Assembly: GCA_012839295.1 (NCBI GenBank)
Contig: DUNO01000002.1
Location: forward strand, 1 to 64,000
DNA: 64,000 nucleotides
Direction: 5' to 3'
DNA from: Clostridiales bacterium
GTDB lineage: Bacteria > Bacillota > Clostridia > Lachnospirales > Lachnospiraceae
The notes below the pieces were generated by a model. It was not told the origin of the DNA. It saw only the letters and a list, made by a program, of their open reading frames with translations, and searched no databases. The first letter of the stretch is position 1. Each line of letters starts with the position of its first letter. The position numbers and the translations under genes are program-made. Below, piece by piece: positions 58,376 to 64,000 of this stretch.

Positions 58376-58819
58376 TTATTCATCCTCACCGCTCAAATCC
58401 GATGTACAATGGGGGCATCTTGTTGCGCTGATGCTGATATCGGAGCGGCAATATGGGCAGGCCTTTGTAGTAGGAGCTGCCGCAGGCTCCGGCTTTTTCA
58501 GCTTGTTGATCCAGCGTACCATTAAAAAGACAACAAAAGCCATAATCAGAAAGTTTAATACCCCCGAGATGAAAAGGCCGTAATTGACTGTAGGCGCCCC
58601 TACGCTCTGGGCATCCTGCAAAGTTACATAATGCTTTCCATCCAATGAGATGAACCAGTTAGTAAAGTTAATCTGGCGGGTAAACAAGCCTAATATGGGC
58701 ATTATTATATCATTTACCAGGGAATTGACGATACTGCTGAATGCACCGCCGATGATGATACCTACTGCCAGATCAATCATATTTCCCCGTAACGCAAATT
58801 TCCTAAATTCCTTTAACAT
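58376..58819 (-). CDS. mscL: Large-conductance mechanosensitive channel with C-terminal zinc ribbon
   Basis: 147 aa. The N-terminal pore helix (RGNMIDLAVGIIIGGAFSSIVNSLVNDIIMP in two parts) and the second segment (LIMAFVVFLMVRWINKLKK) are standard MscL, which releases solutes during hypo-osmotic shock. After residue 110 there is an extra Pro/Ala linker and a zinc ribbon: Cys121, Cys124, Cys135, Cys138 in CPYCRS and CPHCTS. Ordinary MscL ends near residue 130. The ribbon is in the cytoplasm. GGAAGAGAGG precedes the ATG. The gene stands alone between yqeG and the R3 repeats. Confidence 0.93.
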   Translation of the reverse strand: MLKEFRKFALRGNMIDLAVGIIIGGAFSSIVNSLVNDIIMPILGLFTRQINFTNWFISLDGKHYVTLQDAQSVGAPTVNYGLFISGVLNFLIMAFVVFLMVRWINKLKKPEPAAAPTTKACPYCRSDISISATRCPHCTSDLSGEDE

Positions 58820-58848
58820 ATCCTCTCTTCCTCCTATGTGGACTAAAA

Positions 58849-59063
58849 ATAATATAAGTTATGAGAAGTTGTCCTTTAACTTCTCATAAAAGGCGCTGCA
58901 CTTACGCCGTGCATCTCGATTATTGAATCATGGTTTCGATTCAATAATATAAGTTATGAGAAGTTGTCTTTTAACTTCTCATAAAAGGCGCTGTTTTTGC
59001 GCCGTGCAAAGTGTGCCCCAAGGGGCGTACCGATTATCGGAACATGTATTTAGTTCCGATAAT
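58849..59063. repeat. Repeat R3: two tandem hairpin units
   Basis: Two near-identical units (hp1 starts at 58861 and 58956, period 95). Each has: hp1 atgagaagtt/aacttctcat (58861-58887; 58956-58982); hp2 ggcg/cgcc (58892-58908) or ggcgc/gcgcc (58987-59003); then an 11-bp hp3. hp3 differs in sequence but not in shape: attattgaatc/gattcaataat (58919-58948) and attatcggaac/gttccgataat (59033-59063). The second unit also holds a gcccc-aag-gggc stem. It lies between mscL and the GNAT gene, in a 468-base gap; 59064-59287 is AT-rich and otherwise unremarkable. Confidence 0.8.
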
Positions 59064-59287
59064 ATCTTCTATTCATTCATTATAATACTTTGATCAGAAT
59101 TCATAAAGTCTTTTGGGCAAAAATTATTTATTTCAACCGGCTCAAAATTTTTTATTACTAAAAAGATTACACTTCTACTGCTATGGCTTATCCCCTCTGC
59201 ATATTAATATTTGTCATAATACAGTTTCAACCGGTATATGTTCTAAAAGGATGCAATAACATATTTAGGGCATAGGAGAGATCGGGT

Positions 59288-59842
59288 ATGCAGCATAAGG
59301 GGACAAATACCATTGAAACAATCCGGCTGGTGCTTCGCCGGTTCCGCATCGAGGATGCAGGAGCCATGTACCGGAATTGGGCGGGAGATCCACAGGTATG
59401 TAAATACCTTTCCTGGGGACCGCATAGGGATGAGGCCGCCTCCCGAAGCAGGATCAGGGAATGGGTGAGCCGTTACGGGGAACAGAATTTCTATGTATGG
59501 GCAATTGAAATAAAGAATCAGGGGATGCCTGTGGGCTCCATCAGTGTAGAGATATCCAACGAACAGACCTCAACCTGTGAGATTGGCTACTGTATCGGAA
59601 GGGATTATTGGAACCGGGGCATTATGACAGAAGCGTTAAGGGCCATCATGCATTATCTATTTTTTGAGATAGGTTATGTGATGATTCAGGCAAAGCATGA
59701 TATACTTAATACAGCCTCTGGAAAGGTCATGCAAAAGGCGGGGATGAAATACGCAAGGCTTGAGACAAATGTGGGAACCAGAAGGGACGGCACCCAGTAT
59801 GACTGTGTTGTTTACCAGAAAAATATAGCTGACCAGGAATAA
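59288..59842 (+). CDS. GNAT family N-acetyltransferase, RimJ/RimL-like
   Basis: 184 aa. LRRFRIEDAGAMYRNWAGDP is the typical start of this group, then VWAIEIKNQGMPVGSISVEI, IGYCIGRDYWNRGIMTEALR (acetyl-CoA loop R/Q-x-x-G-x-G/A shape WNRGIMTEALRAI) and NTASGKVMQKAGM. It acetylates an unknown amino group, often an N-terminus of a protein or a small antibiotic. The end reads RRDGTQYDCVVYQKN. The start is ATG 59288, with a weak AGGAGAG site 12-17 bases upstream. A related C-terminal fragment is seen at 62930-63013. Confidence 0.9.
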   Translation: MQHKGTNTIETIRLVLRRFRIEDAGAMYRNWAGDPQVCKYLSWGPHRDEAASRSRIREWVSRYGEQNFYVWAIEIKNQGMPVGSISVEISNEQTSTCEIGYCIGRDYWNRGIMTEALRAIMHYLFFEIGYVMIQAKHDILNTASGKVMQKAGMKYARLETNVGTRRDGTQYDCVVYQKNIADQE

Positions 59843-59866
59843 ATGCAGCATCACTGGGCAGGAAAT

Positions 59867-60418
59867 CTAAAAACAGGTTTCCTGCCCAGTTTCTATGTAG
59901 CTAATTGGATACTGGGGATACTTCGCCTTCCATCCCTCTAAATCAACAAAAAGAAATTCATCAATAACATGACGGCATATTTCCCTTCTCATCCGATAAG
60001 AAAAAGGTAAATGAGTGAGCAACTTAGCAATTAATCTCTTCTTTAAAGCTTCGTCCATACCCAAGTTGGTTTCCATCAATAAAACATACTGTACCGGCTT
60101 ATCTGCTTGATTTTTATTACAGGCCCAAACCAGAAACATCGTTCCATAAAATTTTCTCGCCACCCTTTTCCAAAATGGTTCCTCTTCTATTTTTTTCTGA
60201 AACGCTTGTGGGTTGTCCGCATTTTTTATATTAGCATTTTTATATTCCAGGCATATCAATTTTCTTTCATCTTCCACCACAAAATCCACATCTGATAAAT
60301 ACTCTGAATACATGCTTGCCAGCGTATGTGGCTCAAACACGCTTAATGCCTTTGAAAAATCAAACTGCATTTTCCCATTTTCGTCTTGTAAAACTTTGTC
60401 ATGCTCCACTTTTTCCAT
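59867..60418 (-). CDS. Putative PD-(D/E)XK-type nuclease partner of the AAA ATPase
   Basis: 183 aa. The core LSDVDFVVEDERKLICLEYK has D43/D45 about 14 residues before E58-Y59-K60, the spacing and strand pattern of a PD-(D/E)XK site (D, then E-x-K), with a helix Glu (SEYLSD) before it. A following helix (AFQKKIEEEPFWKRVARKF) and a hydrophobic strand (MFLVWAC) complete the expected core. AAGGAG lies before ATG 60418, and the ATPase stops 11 bases upstream. The overall family is not recognised. A nuclease effector of a two-gene system is inferred. Confidence 0.6.
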   Translation of the reverse strand: MEKVEHDKVLQDENGKMQFDFSKALSVFEPHTLASMYSEYLSDVDFVVEDERKLICLEYKNANIKNADNPQAFQKKIEEEPFWKRVARKFYGTMFLVWACNKNQADKPVQYVLLMETNLGMDEALKKRLIAKLLTHLPFSYRMRREICRHVIDEFLFVDLEGWKAKYPQYPISYIETGQETCF

Positions 60419-60429
60419 TCGCTCCTTCT

Positions 60430-61542
60430 CTAATCAGCCATGTTCTTTTCCAAAGCCTCATCCAGTAAACGGTCATCTGCCATAACAATCTTATTTCCTT
60501 TTAACTCACTCAGGTAAAAGGCTGATTTTCCATAAACTTCGGTCACATCCTTGTTTTCTGTTTCAATTGGTTTATATTCTGATGCCACCTCTGCGGAGGC
60601 CCGATACAAATTGTGATACATCACCTGTGCTTCTTTTCTTCTTCGGATTTCAAAATATTTGGCAAGATTATAGCTGTGAGTTGCCACAAATATTTGTACC
60701 CCGGCCTCTTCTAATTGTAACAAAACATCCACCACAAGTGGAAACAGCTCTGGGTTCAGATTCGCTTCGGGTTCATCCCATAACAGAACAGTATCCTTTT
60801 CCAATAATCCATTCCGAATTAATTTCCACAACAATCCCAGTTTTCTTAGTCCTTCTGCTTCCAAAGAAAAATCTATCTTTCTTCCATCTAATTTCAACAC
60901 ATAAAAGGTATCATCCTCCATAATAATCGTTCCATCAATTACTTTGCTGATTTCTCTTAGAATATTTTCCATATAAGGCGGTATTTCCCTCGCTTCCGGC
61001 AAGGAAGCATTTACAATAATATCTACTTGAGTCCCGTCAAATGGCAGCTTATATTTCTGATTCAATGCCAGGAAGCCTTTTGAGTGAGATAGCATTTCTG
61101 TTGTTGGAATAAATACAGACTGTATATTCAATCCCAGCCACTGCTCATAATCAAAAATCCCTTTATGTGATAAGCTGTTAGTAAACGTATTCTTTCCATC
61201 AGATACTTCAAAATAAGAATAATCTTCTTTGCTTCCATTATTTTTCAGTAAATCAGAATCTGATAAATTATTAGAGAAAAACTTTATCAGTTTATCAGTT
61301 TTTCCAATATCAGTTTTTTGAATGGACCATTGGGTTGCTGCATAAATCATTTTTAATAAAGTAGTCTTTCCAACACCATTTTCTCCAATCAGCACATTAA
61401 TTCCATCTCCAAATTGTAATCTAAATGAATCATTAAGCACATCCCCTTCTTTAATATCATAGGTATTGCAATCCTCATTATTCTTCCGCCATTGTCTTTG
61501 AAATGCCATTACGTTTAAGACTTTAATTGATTTAATTGCCAT
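60430..61542 (-). CDS. AAA/ABC-type ATPase (OLD/RloA-like, no TOPRIM)
   Basis: 370 aa. Walker A is GENGVGKTT (residues 53-61), Walker B is VLLWDEPEANLNPE (D256, E257), and the switch His289 is in VATHSYNLAKYF. A degenerate signature SLEAEGLRKLGLL precedes Walker B. This is the AAA_21/AAA_15 group found with nucleases in phage-defence systems. The C-terminus has no TOPRIM nuclease, but a nuclease-like gene follows 11 bases later. ATG 61542 (MAIKSIKVLNVM) is preceded by GGAGG. A fragment of an XRE regulator gene ends 17 bases upstream. Confidence 0.85.
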   Translation of the reverse strand: MAIKSIKVLNVMAFQRQWRKNNEDCNTYDIKEGDVLNDSFRLQFGDGINVLIGENGVGKTTLLKMIYAATQWSIQKTDIGKTDKLIKFFSNNLSDSDLLKNNGSKEDYSYFEVSDGKNTFTNSLSHKGIFDYEQWLGLNIQSVFIPTTEMLSHSKGFLALNQKYKLPFDGTQVDIIVNASLPEAREIPPYMENILREISKVIDGTIIMEDDTFYVLKLDGRKIDFSLEAEGLRKLGLLWKLIRNGLLEKDTVLLWDEPEANLNPELFPLVVDVLLQLEEAGVQIFVATHSYNLAKYFEIRRRKEAQVMYHNLYRASAEVASEYKPIETENKDVTEVYGKSAFYLSELKGNKIVMADDRLLDEALEKNMAD

Positions 61543-61559
61543 TTTTATACCTCCATCTA

Positions 61560-61685
61560 TCATCTATCCATGATGTCATCCACCGTACACCTCATCGACC
61601 GGCAGACTTTTATAATAATATCCGCTGATATCACTTCATTGTGGACCAACTTCTCCCGTGTTCCAATTTCTTTTCTCCTTAATGC
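61560..61685 (-). pseudogene. Remnant of an XRE HTH regulator upstream of the ATPase
   Basis: The minus strand encodes 41 residues that read like the C-terminal half of a YozG-type XRE HTH: REKLVHNEVISADIIIKVCR and SMRCTVDDIMDR, ending at TGA (61560-61562). The frame is closed upstream by TAA directly before 61685 and has no start codon or N-terminal helices. It is probably a decayed regulator once encoded with the ATPase-nuclease pair. The rest of the 61543-61918 gap holds only the promoter region of the secreted-protein gene. Confidence 0.55.
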
Positions 61686-61815
61686 TTACGTACAACAATC
61701 TTTAGTTACATTTACCCATTATGTAAAAGTATACCACAAACCCCCTATACTTTAAAGCAAAAAACATCCTAAATCACAGTCAATTTATTTTTATTGTTGG
61801 GGAGTGAACAGTAAC

Positions 61816-61882
61816 TTTTATTGACCTTTTATTGACAAATGGAAAAATACCACTTGTAACTTTTTTCCTGTAATGTTATACT
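61816..61882 (+). promoter_or_regulatory. Promoter and 11-bp direct repeats before the secreted-protein gene
   Basis: TTTTATTGAC occurs twice, 61816-61825 and 61827-61836, a period of 11 bases. Then come a -35 TTGTAA (61854-61859), a 17-base spacer, and an extended -10 TGTTATACT (hexamer TATACT 61877-61882). The start ATG is 37 bases after the -10. The direct repeats suggest an activator or response-regulator site. Confidence 0.6.
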
Positions 61883-61918
61883 GTAATTGGAAGCTTAATA
61901 ATCGAAAGGCGGATTTAC

Positions 61919-62548
61919 ATGAAAAAACTTAGTAAACTGCTATTCAGTACAATTGTTGCTTCAATTATGGTCTTTATACCAACAATTTCCGTAAATGCTA
62001 AAATTGTTGAAACTGCTAATATTGGCGAAATTCAAAAAATTTTAGATACGGTCAATAAAGTTGTTGAAAAAGAATCAGCAAATATTAACTACTTTGAGAA
62101 TGGCACAAAATCTATAGATGTTTATGTAGATGGAAAAAAAGAAGGAACCGTTACTTTTGAAACAAAAAAGATTGATACTGGAAGTGTCCATCCCAATTGG
62201 GAAGGTGTAGTTACTGATGGTAATTGGGTTCATACTAGAACATACGATATAGGTGTAAGCGGATCCGCAACACTCCAAACCAATTATACTGTATCAGGAA
62301 TGGCAACTCGTATTACCCCAACTAGCACAACAGCTTATGCAACTCCTCCCGTTGGTTATAAACTAGACACTACTTCATCTTATTACTCTATAGTTAGTAG
62401 TGATATGTTTAATGCATATGGGAGTTACACTTACTCAATACCAGTTATAAATCTCCCTCTCACTTATAAGATAACTTGCGGTTTTTGGATATTTAGTCCA
62501 GATGCCGAAGGGAAAAACTTGGTAATATCAAGTGGTATTTCTTTATAA
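61919..62548 (+). CDS. Secreted protein of unknown function
   Basis: 209 aa with a clear Sec signal peptide (MKKLSKLLFSTIVASIMVFI then a cleavage-like SVNAK near residue 27). The mature part starts with a helix (IVETANIGEIQKILDTVNKV) and continues as a Thr/Ser/Tyr-rich, mostly beta region (VDGKKEGTVTFETKKI, SATLQTNYTVSGMATRITPT) ending in CGFWIF. No enzyme motif or family was recognised. A small membrane protein gene follows 34 bases later. Low GC and an own promoter suggest an acquired unit. A bacteriocin-like or antigen-like role is only a guess. Confidence 0.7.
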   Translation: MKKLSKLLFSTIVASIMVFIPTISVNAKIVETANIGEIQKILDTVNKVVEKESANINYFENGTKSIDVYVDGKKEGTVTFETKKIDTGSVHPNWEGVVTDGNWVHTRTYDIGVSGSATLQTNYTVSGMATRITPTSTTAYATPPVGYKLDTTSSYYSIVSSDMFNAYGSYTYSIPVINLPLTYKITCGFWIFSPDAEGKNLVISSGISL

Positions 62549-62582
62549 AATAAAACTCAATGATAGGAATGAGCTAGATTCG

Positions 62583-62849
62583 ATGAATATTGATAATTTA
62601 AAAACGGCAATGATAATATCTCTTCCATTTATAATCTGGGTTCTGCTTATTATTGCCACAGCAGTAATAATTTCCTTTACCTTATATAAATCTAAAAGAA
62701 TCAAACACAATACCTTTGGATTAATATTCAAAATATCATTAGCACTGTTAATACTTAGTGTTATTTGCGTTATCGGATATTATATGATATTTGATCCAGC
62801 GGCAGAAATCAACATACAAGTAATGAATTTAACTTCAAAACTTAATTAA
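62583..62849 (+). CDS. Small membrane protein paired with the secreted protein
   Basis: 88 aa with two membrane segments: IISLPFIIWVLLIIATAVII and IFKISLALLILSVICVIGYYMIF, separated by a basic loop (KSKRIKHNTF). The start ATG 62583 (MNIDNLKTAM) fits better than the upstream ATG at 62532, which overlaps the previous gene by 17 bases. The ribosome-binding site is weak. Immediately downstream is a 14-bp stem (62863-62897). An immunity or anchoring partner of the secreted protein is possible but unproven. Confidence 0.65.
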   Translation: MNIDNLKTAMIISLPFIIWVLLIIATAVIISFTLYKSKRIKHNTFGLIFKISLALLILSVICVIGYYMIFDPAAEINIQVMNLTSKLN

Positions 62850-62862
62850 GCTTCCTCTCATC

Positions 62863-62897
62863 GGGCAGCCGCAAAACTAATGATTTTGCGGCTGCCC
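62863..62897. terminator. Strong hairpin after the secreted/membrane gene pair
   Basis: gggcagccgcaaaa (62863-62876) pairs perfectly with ttttgcggctgccc (62884-62897), 14 bp with a 7-base loop. No T-tract is present, so it may work by structure or with another factor. Confidence 0.7.
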
Positions 62898-62929
62898 ACT
62901 TGATGCCCTGCATTTTCATTATTATATTA

Positions 62930-63013
62930 TTATGCCGAATCGATACTTTTCTGATAGACCACACAGTCATAGCGGATACCATCCCTTCCAATGCTGTACC
63001 GGGGGAAACTGTA
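62930..63013 (-). pseudogene. C-terminal remnant of a GNAT acetyltransferase
   Basis: The minus strand reads YSFPRYSIGRDGIRYDCVVY then QKSIDSA and a stop at 62930-62932. This matches the end of the GNAT gene at 59288-59842 (RRDGTQYDCVVYQKN) at most positions. A TAA lies directly upstream, so only the last ~27 codons remain. It is probably the leftover of an acetyltransferase copy. No other recognisable content was found in 63014-63150. Confidence 0.6.
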
Positions 63014-63158
63014 TTATGACAAATTTTCTATGGCCACACTAAGGTTTCTTTCCTTTGGGTTACGGAAATAGCCTCTTCATTTTTTCTATCATGCATCTGG
63101 GAACAGGAAAACAGCGTTCAGAGCAATACAATGAAGTTTCAGGCAGAACCCTGAAAAA

Positions 63159-63191
63159 GCAGGGGGAATCCGCCCCGCGGAGCCCCCCTGC
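63159..63191 (-). terminator. Terminator after pheT
   Basis: gcaggggg (from 63159) pairs with cccccctgc (to 63191), with a compact GC-rich loop region. On the minus strand the 3' arm is followed by TTTTTC (complement 63153-63158). Confidence 0.85.
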
Positions 63192-63202
63192 CTGATCATT
63201 TA

Positions 63203-64000
63203 TTATTTACGGATCACGATGCCCTTTGTCTCAAACAATGCCAGCAATTCATCCACCATCGCCTGGATCTCCTGTCCCTCCAGGGTTCTTTCCTTTGATA
63301 TGAACTCAAAGCGCACTGTCACGCTTTTCTTTCCGGGTAAAAGCTTCTCATCCTCGAAGATATCAACCAGGTGGAAGCCTTGGAGGTATTCGCACTTATA
63401 TTCCTTCACATAGCTGACGATATTTTCATAGCGGAGGGATTTATCTGCCAGTAAGCTCAGGTCAATTGTCACTCCCGGGTATTTACTGATCTCTGAATAA
63501 CGAAGCGGCTCCTTTGTAACCTTCTCTAACTGTCCAAGGTCAATTTCAGCAAAGGCGACATTCAATTTTTTGTCCAGCTTATTCTTGATCTTTGGGTTGA
63601 TCACAGAGAAGTATCCAAGCTCTTCCCCTGCCAGCCTGATGCGTGCACTATTTACCGGATGGACATAATTGTATTTTGCCAGCTCCTCCGAAACGGCGAA
63701 GGTAGGGCGGAGGTTCTTAATTGACAGCAGGAGCTGTTCTACGATCTCCTTACATTTGAAATAAATCTCTTTATCGCCCAGCTTCTTGCTGGCTACGGCA
63801 ATACCCAGCCTTTTACGCTCATCACACAGGCCGTCTTCCCTTAGCCCGTTAGCTACGCGGCCAATTTCAAACATGCCCATCTCCGGGTTGGAATCTACAT
63901 TCTTTGCTACAAACCCAAGCAAGCTTGGAATCATGGTAGAACGGATTGTATCATTCTCTGCCGTAATGGAATTGATAATGCGGATATTCGGCTCTGTAAT
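63203..64000 (-). CDS. pheT: Phenylalanine-tRNA ligase beta subunit, C-terminal part (partial)
   Basis: The frame is open to the window's right edge, so only about the last 265 residues are seen; translation begins inside the gene (ITEPNIRIINSITAEN upstream of the first ATG at 63934). It has the B5/core end (STMIPSLLGFVAKNVDSNPE, MFEIGRVANGL) and the C-terminal FDX-ACB anticodon-binding domain (YPGVTIDLSLLADKS, KSVTVRFEFISKERTL, VDELLALFETKGIVIRK). With PheS it charges tRNA-Phe. The upstream gene pheS should lie beyond 64000. Confidence 0.95.
   Translation of the reverse strand: MTEPNIRIINSITAENDTIRSTMIPSLLGFVAKNVDSNPEMGMFEIGRVANGLREDGLCDERKRLGIAVASKKLGDKEIYFKCKEIVEQLLLSIKNLRPTFAVSEELAKYNYVHPVNSARIRLAGEELGYFSVINPKIKNKLDKKLNVAFAEIDLGQLEKVTKEPLRYSEISKYPGVTIDLSLLADKSLRYENIVSYVKEYKCEYLQGFHLVDIFEDEKLLPGKKSVTVRFEFISKERTLEGQEIQAMVDELLALFETKGIVIRK

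Follow-up and report, generated by a model that had tools for sequence, protein, structure and literature searches.

An Intact Stand-Alone HEC-02 Pair of an ATPase and a Probable Nuclease in a Lachnospiraceae Genome, with Relatives in BREX and Type I RM-Like Operons

The Locus and Its Surroundings

Two intact genes lie on the minus strand at 59867–61563 of the window, meaning the whole 64,000-nucleotide stretch analyzed here (contig DUNO01000002.1 of a Clostridiales bacterium, family Lachnospiraceae). The upstream gene, A, encodes an ABC-type ATPase, and the downstream gene, B, encodes a protein of 183 amino acids (59867–60418, minus strand). A previous reading made from the letters alone (the sequence-only reading) had described an ATPase gene with a 183-amino-acid partner 11 bases on, and both open frames are found intact at that place and on that strand. 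The longest open frame of A spans 60430–61563 (minus strand, 377 amino acids). Its start is best placed at 61542, for a predicted product of 370 amino acids (60430–61542), because a GGAGG precedes that ATG by 7 nt and because this start aligns with the starts of the homologues L005–L007. The GGAGG (61550–61554, minus strand) is the likely ribosome-binding site of A, and an AAGGAG (60422–60427, minus strand) inside the 11-nt gap between the A stop and the B start is the likely site for B.

Upstream of A lies the C-terminal half of a small XRE-type regulator gene (61563–61685, minus strand). The truncated gene seen in the sequence-only reading is indeed there, as a frame of 41 codons after a stop, and by blastp it aligns with an intact XRE gene at a related locus, L035, whose product has 86 amino acids, an HTH_26 assignment and a link to BREX. 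The match covers 40 amino acids (residues 38–77) at 50%, with an E value of 4e-10 against 3,462 frames of the collected loci, filters and composition correction being off. NCBIfam gave no match to the remnant at 0.01. The likeness suggests that the window pair descends from an XRE–A–B unit of the L035 kind, but XRE regulators of such a kind are common, so it falls short of proof. Among 43 loci, a regulator like that of L035 is seen beside A only in L035 (blastp, 1e-8), and this type of regulator therefore looks optional; in L062 an annotated HTH regulator is found two genes upstream. Expression of the window pair is uncertain because the XRE gene is broken, and we infer that the copy still works without an intact regulator.

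The pair sits in an AT-richer stretch near a gene remnant, as had been noticed earlier: GC is 35.2% in A and 37.0% in B, against 44.7% for the window, and a decayed GNAT gene is close by. The flank on the B side carries an MscL gene and an intact GNAT gene, and the A side includes phenylalanyl-tRNA synthetase genes. A hairpin with 16-nt arms, 94% complementary, covers the B stop codon (59853–59890). It is terminator-like on the plus strand and faces the convergent GNAT gene, and the 81-nt minus-strand fold at the same place reaches −28 kcal/mol (z −3.9); it is perhaps a terminator shared by B and the GNAT gene. Rfam gave no match at the gathering score over 58700–63300.

Several other features surround the pair. 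Divergent from A is an AT-rich gene (61919–62548, plus strand) for a product of 209 amino acids with a start that looks by eye like a signal peptide; its only profile match is sub-threshold, to GH115_C (2.3e-4), and a short membrane-like frame comes next. Between that frame and the GNAT remnant lies an inverted repeat of 14 nt, perfectly matched around a 7-nt loop (62863–62897). The remnant itself (62942–63027, minus strand) comes from a second, inverted GNAT gene, with the 3' end (RDGIRYDCVVYQKSI) and the upstream region side by side, and it is complementary, at 77–80%, to segments in the region of the intact GNAT gene (59206–59253 and 59781–59826). An intact and a decayed GNAT copy frame the AT-rich stretch, which holds A, B and two small genes. 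Just past the start of the MscL gene, a 66-nt repeat occurs as two direct copies 95 nt apart and 92% identical (58848–59008).

Family Assignment and the ATPase Subunit

By its profile matches the pair is a member of HEC-02, a candidate defense kind listed in PADLOC. A matches the HEC-02A profile PDLC04213 at 1.4e-99 (residues 8–375 of the 377-amino-acid frame, profile positions 1–334 of 337), and B matches the HEC-02B profile PDLC04217 at 7.3e-54 (residues 7–175, profile positions 3–167 of 169). The defense-type module proposed in the sequence-only reading is upheld. Its further statement that the combination could not be matched to a named system does not hold, as both genes match HEC-02 profiles and such dyads have already been published. 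All 17 members of each homologue alignment, for A and for B, match their HEC-02 profile, a count that is partly circular since many members were recruited with one of these profiles. The HEC-02 gene order is found here, with A before B on one strand and an 11-nt gap. Embedding in another system, from which the HEC name comes, was not taken as defining HEC-02. Two further PADLOC profiles have names that look swapped: PDLC04146, called HEC-02B, matches the ATPase (17 of 17 A members), and PDLC04145, called HEC-02A, matches 2 of 17 B members.

A is also recognized by Pfam AAA_21 (8.8e-21). The motifs named in the sequence-only reading are present (370-amino-acid numbering): the Walker A motif GENGVGKT, the Walker B motif VLLWDEPEA, and H289. 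Their key residues G53, N55, G58, K59, T60, D256, E257 and H289 are invariant in 17 A homologues, and so are E230, G231 and K234 (E230-G231-K234). The best PADLOC match of A outside HEC is AriA of PARIS (4.5e-21), with AbiLi and GajA also among the next named kin. Among solved structures the nearest are PtuA, Rad50 and FtsE-type ABC ATPases, and there are weak matches to RecF, Rad50 and SMC ATPases. Pfam finds no Toprim domain in A, which ends at 370 amino acids. A is described here as an ABC/OLD-like ATPase subunit, the OLD label being adopted from the literature.

The ATPase clade of the window (alignment A4) had no relatives among viral contigs, and A itself matched two unannotated records, H6 and H7, in a phage collection. 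An ATPase search that re-found the contigs of L052–L060 gave five more matches, weak and short (L074–L078, E 1e-6 to 9e-5).

The Probable Nuclease Subunit

Pfam and NCBIfam give B no match up to E 1. Searches of solved structures likewise gave none up to E 5 for B alone or up to E 10 for a 17-member profile. Outside HEC-02B, PADLOC gives a weak match to PDC-S01 (0.0021, residues 39–80). Pfam searches with 17 B homologues return weak and scattered matches to DUF6661 (0.0018, 2 of 17), SfsA (0.14, 2 of 17) and NERD (0.054, 1 of 17). Neither Pfam nor NCBIfam recognizes a DNA-reading domain in B. Searches of viral contigs with the B of the window and with alignment A5 found no relatives, and B had no match in the phage collection.

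DUF4143, UPF0102 and Cas4 belong to the PD-(D/E)XK clan. When a profile built from 28 B proteins is aligned to those of DUF4143 and UPF0102, D45, E58 and K60 fall on the D...E-x-K motif of these two families. The hhalign P values for DUF4143 and UPF0102 are 3e-4 and 1.7e-4 with 28 proteins and 1.2e-3 and 5e-4 with 17, and for each family 0 of 100 column shuffles equaled the score. The alignments span 20–53 columns at the motif region with modest hhalign probabilities (19–49%), and the fold of B beyond that region is extrapolated from them. One Cas4 set aligned in the same register as the B motif, not significantly (P 0.15–0.36), and a second aligned away from the motif (P 0.12–0.18). The shuffle control covered a third family, Toprim_4, for which 77 of 100 shuffles scored as well as the B profile; with the match at chance level, a Toprim identity for the partner was rejected.

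Conservation points to the same residues. In 28 aligned B proteins, drawn from the 43 B loci, E58 and K60 are kept in all and D45 in 27, with E in the remaining one; E49 is kept in 24 and D43 in 15. The sequence-only reading had proposed D43/D45...E58-x-K60 as the nuclease motif: all of these residues are present, and the proposal stands for D45, E58 and K60, but D43, at 15 of 28, is not conserved. It had not listed K89, which is invariant in all 28. D45, E58 and K60 are likely to form the catalytic set, together with the invariant K89. B is most likely a PD-(D/E)XK nuclease, as had been suggested, and an assignment to a non-nuclease fold did not arise.

DUF4143 is itself common in the genome that carries the window, which has 13 matches to it, some of them fragments, compared with 0–4 in 12 relatives of the genus; one relative of the order has 12.

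Pairing and Spread

Loci were gathered by searches with B and by searches with A, which together gave 43 loci with B, 41 of them with A. The other two, L037 and L048, stand outside the counts for A because B lies at a contig end that leaves no room for it. In all 41 loci with A, the window included, a match to B follows directly downstream on the same strand, and in 37 of the 41 the spacing is −60 to +15 nt. B is also present in all 21 loci that came from A searches, in which it was not selected for (one of these, L061, was found by a B search as well). The sequence-only reading had named rarity of the pairing among homologues as a sign against a joint module, and adjacency throughout the surveyed neighborhoods does not bear this out. 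Four loci, L019–L022, were dropped; their HEC-02B matches were weak (E 1.4e-5 to 2.9e-4) and no A was found below 1e-15 in these loci of 2–3 kb. The B frame is shortened in L203 and L204, and the latter is without the ExK lysine. In L042 (6885–9247), an ISL3-type transposase gene interrupts A.

The pair is patchily distributed. With the window's own genome counted each time, A occurs in 1 of 34 genomes of the genus (1e-30) and 9 of 391 of the class (1e-25). The B profile finds 12 of 299 genomes of the family at 1e-3, of which four weak ones were dropped, and at 1e-6 it finds 9 of 392 genomes in the order and 4 of 398 in the phylum. A is found in 4 of 72,556 plasmid records at 1e-20 (L061–L064).

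Placement in Other Defense Operons

In 10 of 41 loci the pair is inside another defense operon or at its edge (7 BREX, 2 type I RM-like and 1 PglXI/HEC-01), a lower bound because BREX was sought in all loci and other systems only at selected neighbors. In the other 31 no further defense operon was seen within that same scope. The BREX calls draw on blastp of the 43 loci, the NCBIfam models for BrxC, PglX and PglZ, the Pfam models for BrxA and BrxB, pairwise checks and an annotated Methylomonas plasmid.

Within BREX, the pair occupies three different positions. It is found at the head in L035 (XRE–A–B–brxA–brxB–brxC–pglX), between brxC and pglX in L054, L058, L059, L060 and L061 (brxC–A–B–pglX), and between pglX and pglZ in L006 from Petralouisia muris (pglX–A–B–pglZ). 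The 7 BREX loci represent six distinct sequences, since L059 and L060 are identical at the pair. In L053 (1324–7469), the order HEC-01A–HEC-01B–PglXI–A–B places HEC-01 and HEC-02 on either side of one PglXI methyltransferase gene. A different arrangement occurs in L203 (6402–15910) and L209 (5959–15248), in which hsdM–hsdS–A–B is followed by a XerA-type recombinase gene and a partial hsdS, with hsdR at one end. These two are labeled type I RM-like because the hsdM, hsdS and hsdR matches fall below curated cut-offs and only the recombinase passes; in gene order, each looks like a phase-variable type I RM locus. A type I REase-like neighbor is found in L043, and Shango genes lie near the pair in L037. 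On the viral contig of L052 (7849–9364), a DUF6088 gene and then an AbiEii gene come after the pair.

The window pair stands alone, and embedding in another system was not seen at its locus. A search for PglZ in the window's own genome, which is 97.9% complete, found none at 1e-3, so guarding BREX cannot be the job of the pair here.

Trees of the Two Subunits

The trees of the two subunits disagree. In the A tree, the window, L005–L007, L034, L036, L046 and L047 form one clade (59–84% identity, support 99/100), which is far from L035, L038, L040, L045 and L202 (33–40% identity). With B, only the window and L005–L007 stay together (60–79% identity). The B proteins of L034, L036, L046 and L047 are 36–53% identical to those of L035, L038, L040, L045 and L202 and 26–36% identical to those of the window group. 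A B tree constrained to contain the A clade is rejected by the AU test, at p 0.0027 for 20 rows and at p 0.015 for the 14 that are left once six long or distant ones are removed, and L034, L036, L046 and L047 by themselves form no B clade either (p 0.034). The tested group was defined from the ATPase, after the B identities had also been seen. L051 was left out of both trees, and one test on the A tree, for a group that includes L043 (p 6e-8), was poorly chosen and has no bearing on exchange.

With the ATPase and nuclease trees in disagreement, B may have passed from one ATPase clade to another. The B trees are weakly resolved at most of their inner forks (10 of 17 open with 20 rows, 7 of 11 with 14), and the branch of the window group is 1.27 and 1.69 long in them. 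As an alternative to exchange, B may have changed very fast on this branch. The disagreement points to a subunit under arms-race change.

A broader picture can be drawn tentatively, as one possibility that we rate below even. HEC-02 could be a mix-and-match guard in which one ATPase sensor lineage works with two nuclease lineages through subunit exchange. The unit would move between stand-alone sites, the three BREX slots and the hsdS-recombinase slot, the ATPase would read a signal common to blocked methylation-based defenses, and the nuclease would be swapped to escape phage countermeasures. Both the conflict between the subunit trees and the slot between hsdS and a recombinase gene may be new.

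Proposed Mechanism and Alternatives

The reading that we favor, with reasonable though far from full confidence, is that the window carries a stand-alone module of the HEC-02, or "OLD-ABC ATPase + REase," kind, in which an ATPase-gated nuclease halts the infected cell on an infection signal. Family membership, strict pairing, conservation of the candidate catalytic set and a repeated presence in BREX and type I RM-like operons are documented in the sequences compared. From these we infer a course of events in which A would dimerize on ATP and hold B. The trigger would most likely be restriction or BREX enzymes blocked by phage anti-restriction proteins, or else some different mark of phage replication. 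By turning over ATP, A would then license B to cut nucleic acid, and this cutting would stop the infected cell, an abortive outcome. The pair is thus probably an abortive nuclease that backs up restriction or BREX. Its anatomy, with an ATPase sensor, a separate nuclease and a seat in methylation-based defenses, fits the picture of a guardian or backup. That the target of B might be RNA is suggested, by analogy, only by WonAB.

The same module might instead restrict phage DNA directly, with A loading on or scanning the phage DNA, B cleaving it and the cell surviving. PD-(D/E)XK enzymes are mostly DNases, the B profile matches are to DUF4143 and UPF0102, and the pair nests in DNA-modification systems, all of which speak for this course. 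We nevertheless consider it on the unlikely side, as B has no recognized DNA-reading domain, the window's own genome has the pair without PglZ, and the described relative WonAB stops translation and leaves genomic DNA intact, according to its report (PMC12137116). That relative also weighs on a toxin–antitoxin type of addiction pair, in which B would be a poison held by A for the upkeep of mobile DNA: the WonAB nuclease is described there as toxic only with active ATPase, whereas an antitoxin would have the reverse effect. The seat of the pair within BREX and RM-like operons likewise argues against addiction, which is left quite improbable even though the two genes form an operon downstream of an XRE remnant, the pair is found on four plasmid records (L061–L064) and AAA_21 is described as a "putative AbiEii toxin, Type IV TA system."

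That the window copy is a relic which no longer acts would be compatible with the other readings of ancestral function, and it is somewhat less improbable than addiction while still unlikely. The XRE remnant, the decayed inverted GNAT copy at 62942–63027, the low GC and the lack of PglZ in the genome would agree with decay, but both frames are full length, the catalytic set and the ribosome-binding sites are present, and the L035-type regulator looks optional, being seen beside A only in L035 among the 43 loci. Least probable is a DNA-repair or genome-upkeep pair of the RecF/Rad50 type with no part in defense; its mark is the set of weak A matches to RecF, Rad50 and SMC ATPases, and it goes poorly with very patchy presence, low GC, plasmid carriage and BREX/RM-like operon placement.

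In the literature searched, HEC-02 is so far a database name, and it represents a little-studied kind of phage defense. The window pair is compact, has both genes intact and stands alone; its candidate catalytic set is clear, and it has relatives in BREX and type I RM-like operons. The idea of a guardian of restriction is therefore directly testable with it.

Comparison with Known Systems

HEC-02 is a PADLOC-DB candidate, a "Hma-embedded candidate," reportedly from a 2024 preprint by Payne et al. Both window subunits match its profiles nearly end to end, with A first, and the window copy stands alone although the family name comes from embedding. An experimental report on HEC-02 was not found in the literature searched, supplements being outside that search. 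The expansion of HEC as "Hma-embedded candidates" is given in two papers (PMC12988326, PMC11411939).

Other ATPase–nuclease systems share parts of this build. PARIS has an ABC-type ATPase in common with the pair, and its AriA ranks first among the PADLOC matches of A outside HEC, but AriB is a Toprim nuclease, B is unlike Toprim and AriB is not among the PADLOC matches of B. In Septu the partner is the HNH protein PtuB, and B gives no PtuB or HNH match. The sequence-only reading had set the pair apart from PARIS and Septu, and this is sustained by a partner without Toprim/DUF4435 or HNH. OLD and Gabija have Toprim fused to the ATPase, whereas A has no Toprim match. PD-T4-4 and HEC-01 combine related ATPases with a small partner, as in the pair, but up to E 1 B matches neither PD-T4-4_B nor HEC-01B. 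PrrC with EcoPrrI shares the embedding of a nuclease gene in a type I RM locus; it is one protein with an anticodon nuclease and has no separate PD-(D/E)XK partner. PrrC and PARIS are named as RM guardians in a review (PMC12707154).

In its build, as read from the sequence, the pair is of the published "OLD-ABC ATPase + REase" kind, with an ABC ATPase lacking Toprim beside a small protein of probable PD-(D/E)XK type. The "OLD-ABC ATPase + novel REase" operon is said to go back to Krishnan in 2020, and the Anaerovibrio pair named for it is likened to the window pair by description, not by sequence. Dyads of an ABC ATPase and a PD-(D/E)XK protein are described in two papers (PMC12839542, PMC12137116). 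In the first of these, Rakesh and Krishnan report 594 taxa in which OLD-ABCs with HNH, PD-(D/E)XK or PIN partners are linked to BREX and related systems, and they propose that dyads within BREX serve as backup effectors against anti-restriction (PMC12839542).

WonAB, from a Vibrio prophage, resembles the pair as a two-gene operon below a putative regulator, with an ABC ATPase and a small PD-(D/E)xK partner; a difference lies in the C-terminal extensions of WonA, which are described as holding WonB (PMC12137116). A published WonAB primer matched no viral contig. Both genes, the ATPase residues and the nuclease lysine are all required, WonB is toxic only with active WonA, and translation stops without degradation of genomic DNA (Adams et al., PMC12137116). 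The same source calls WonAB close to the "OLD-ABC ATPase + novel REase" operon and finds it in 0.96% of genomes. WonAB is the closest tested kin of the HEC-02 pair, a likeness drawn from its description and not from sequence comparison.
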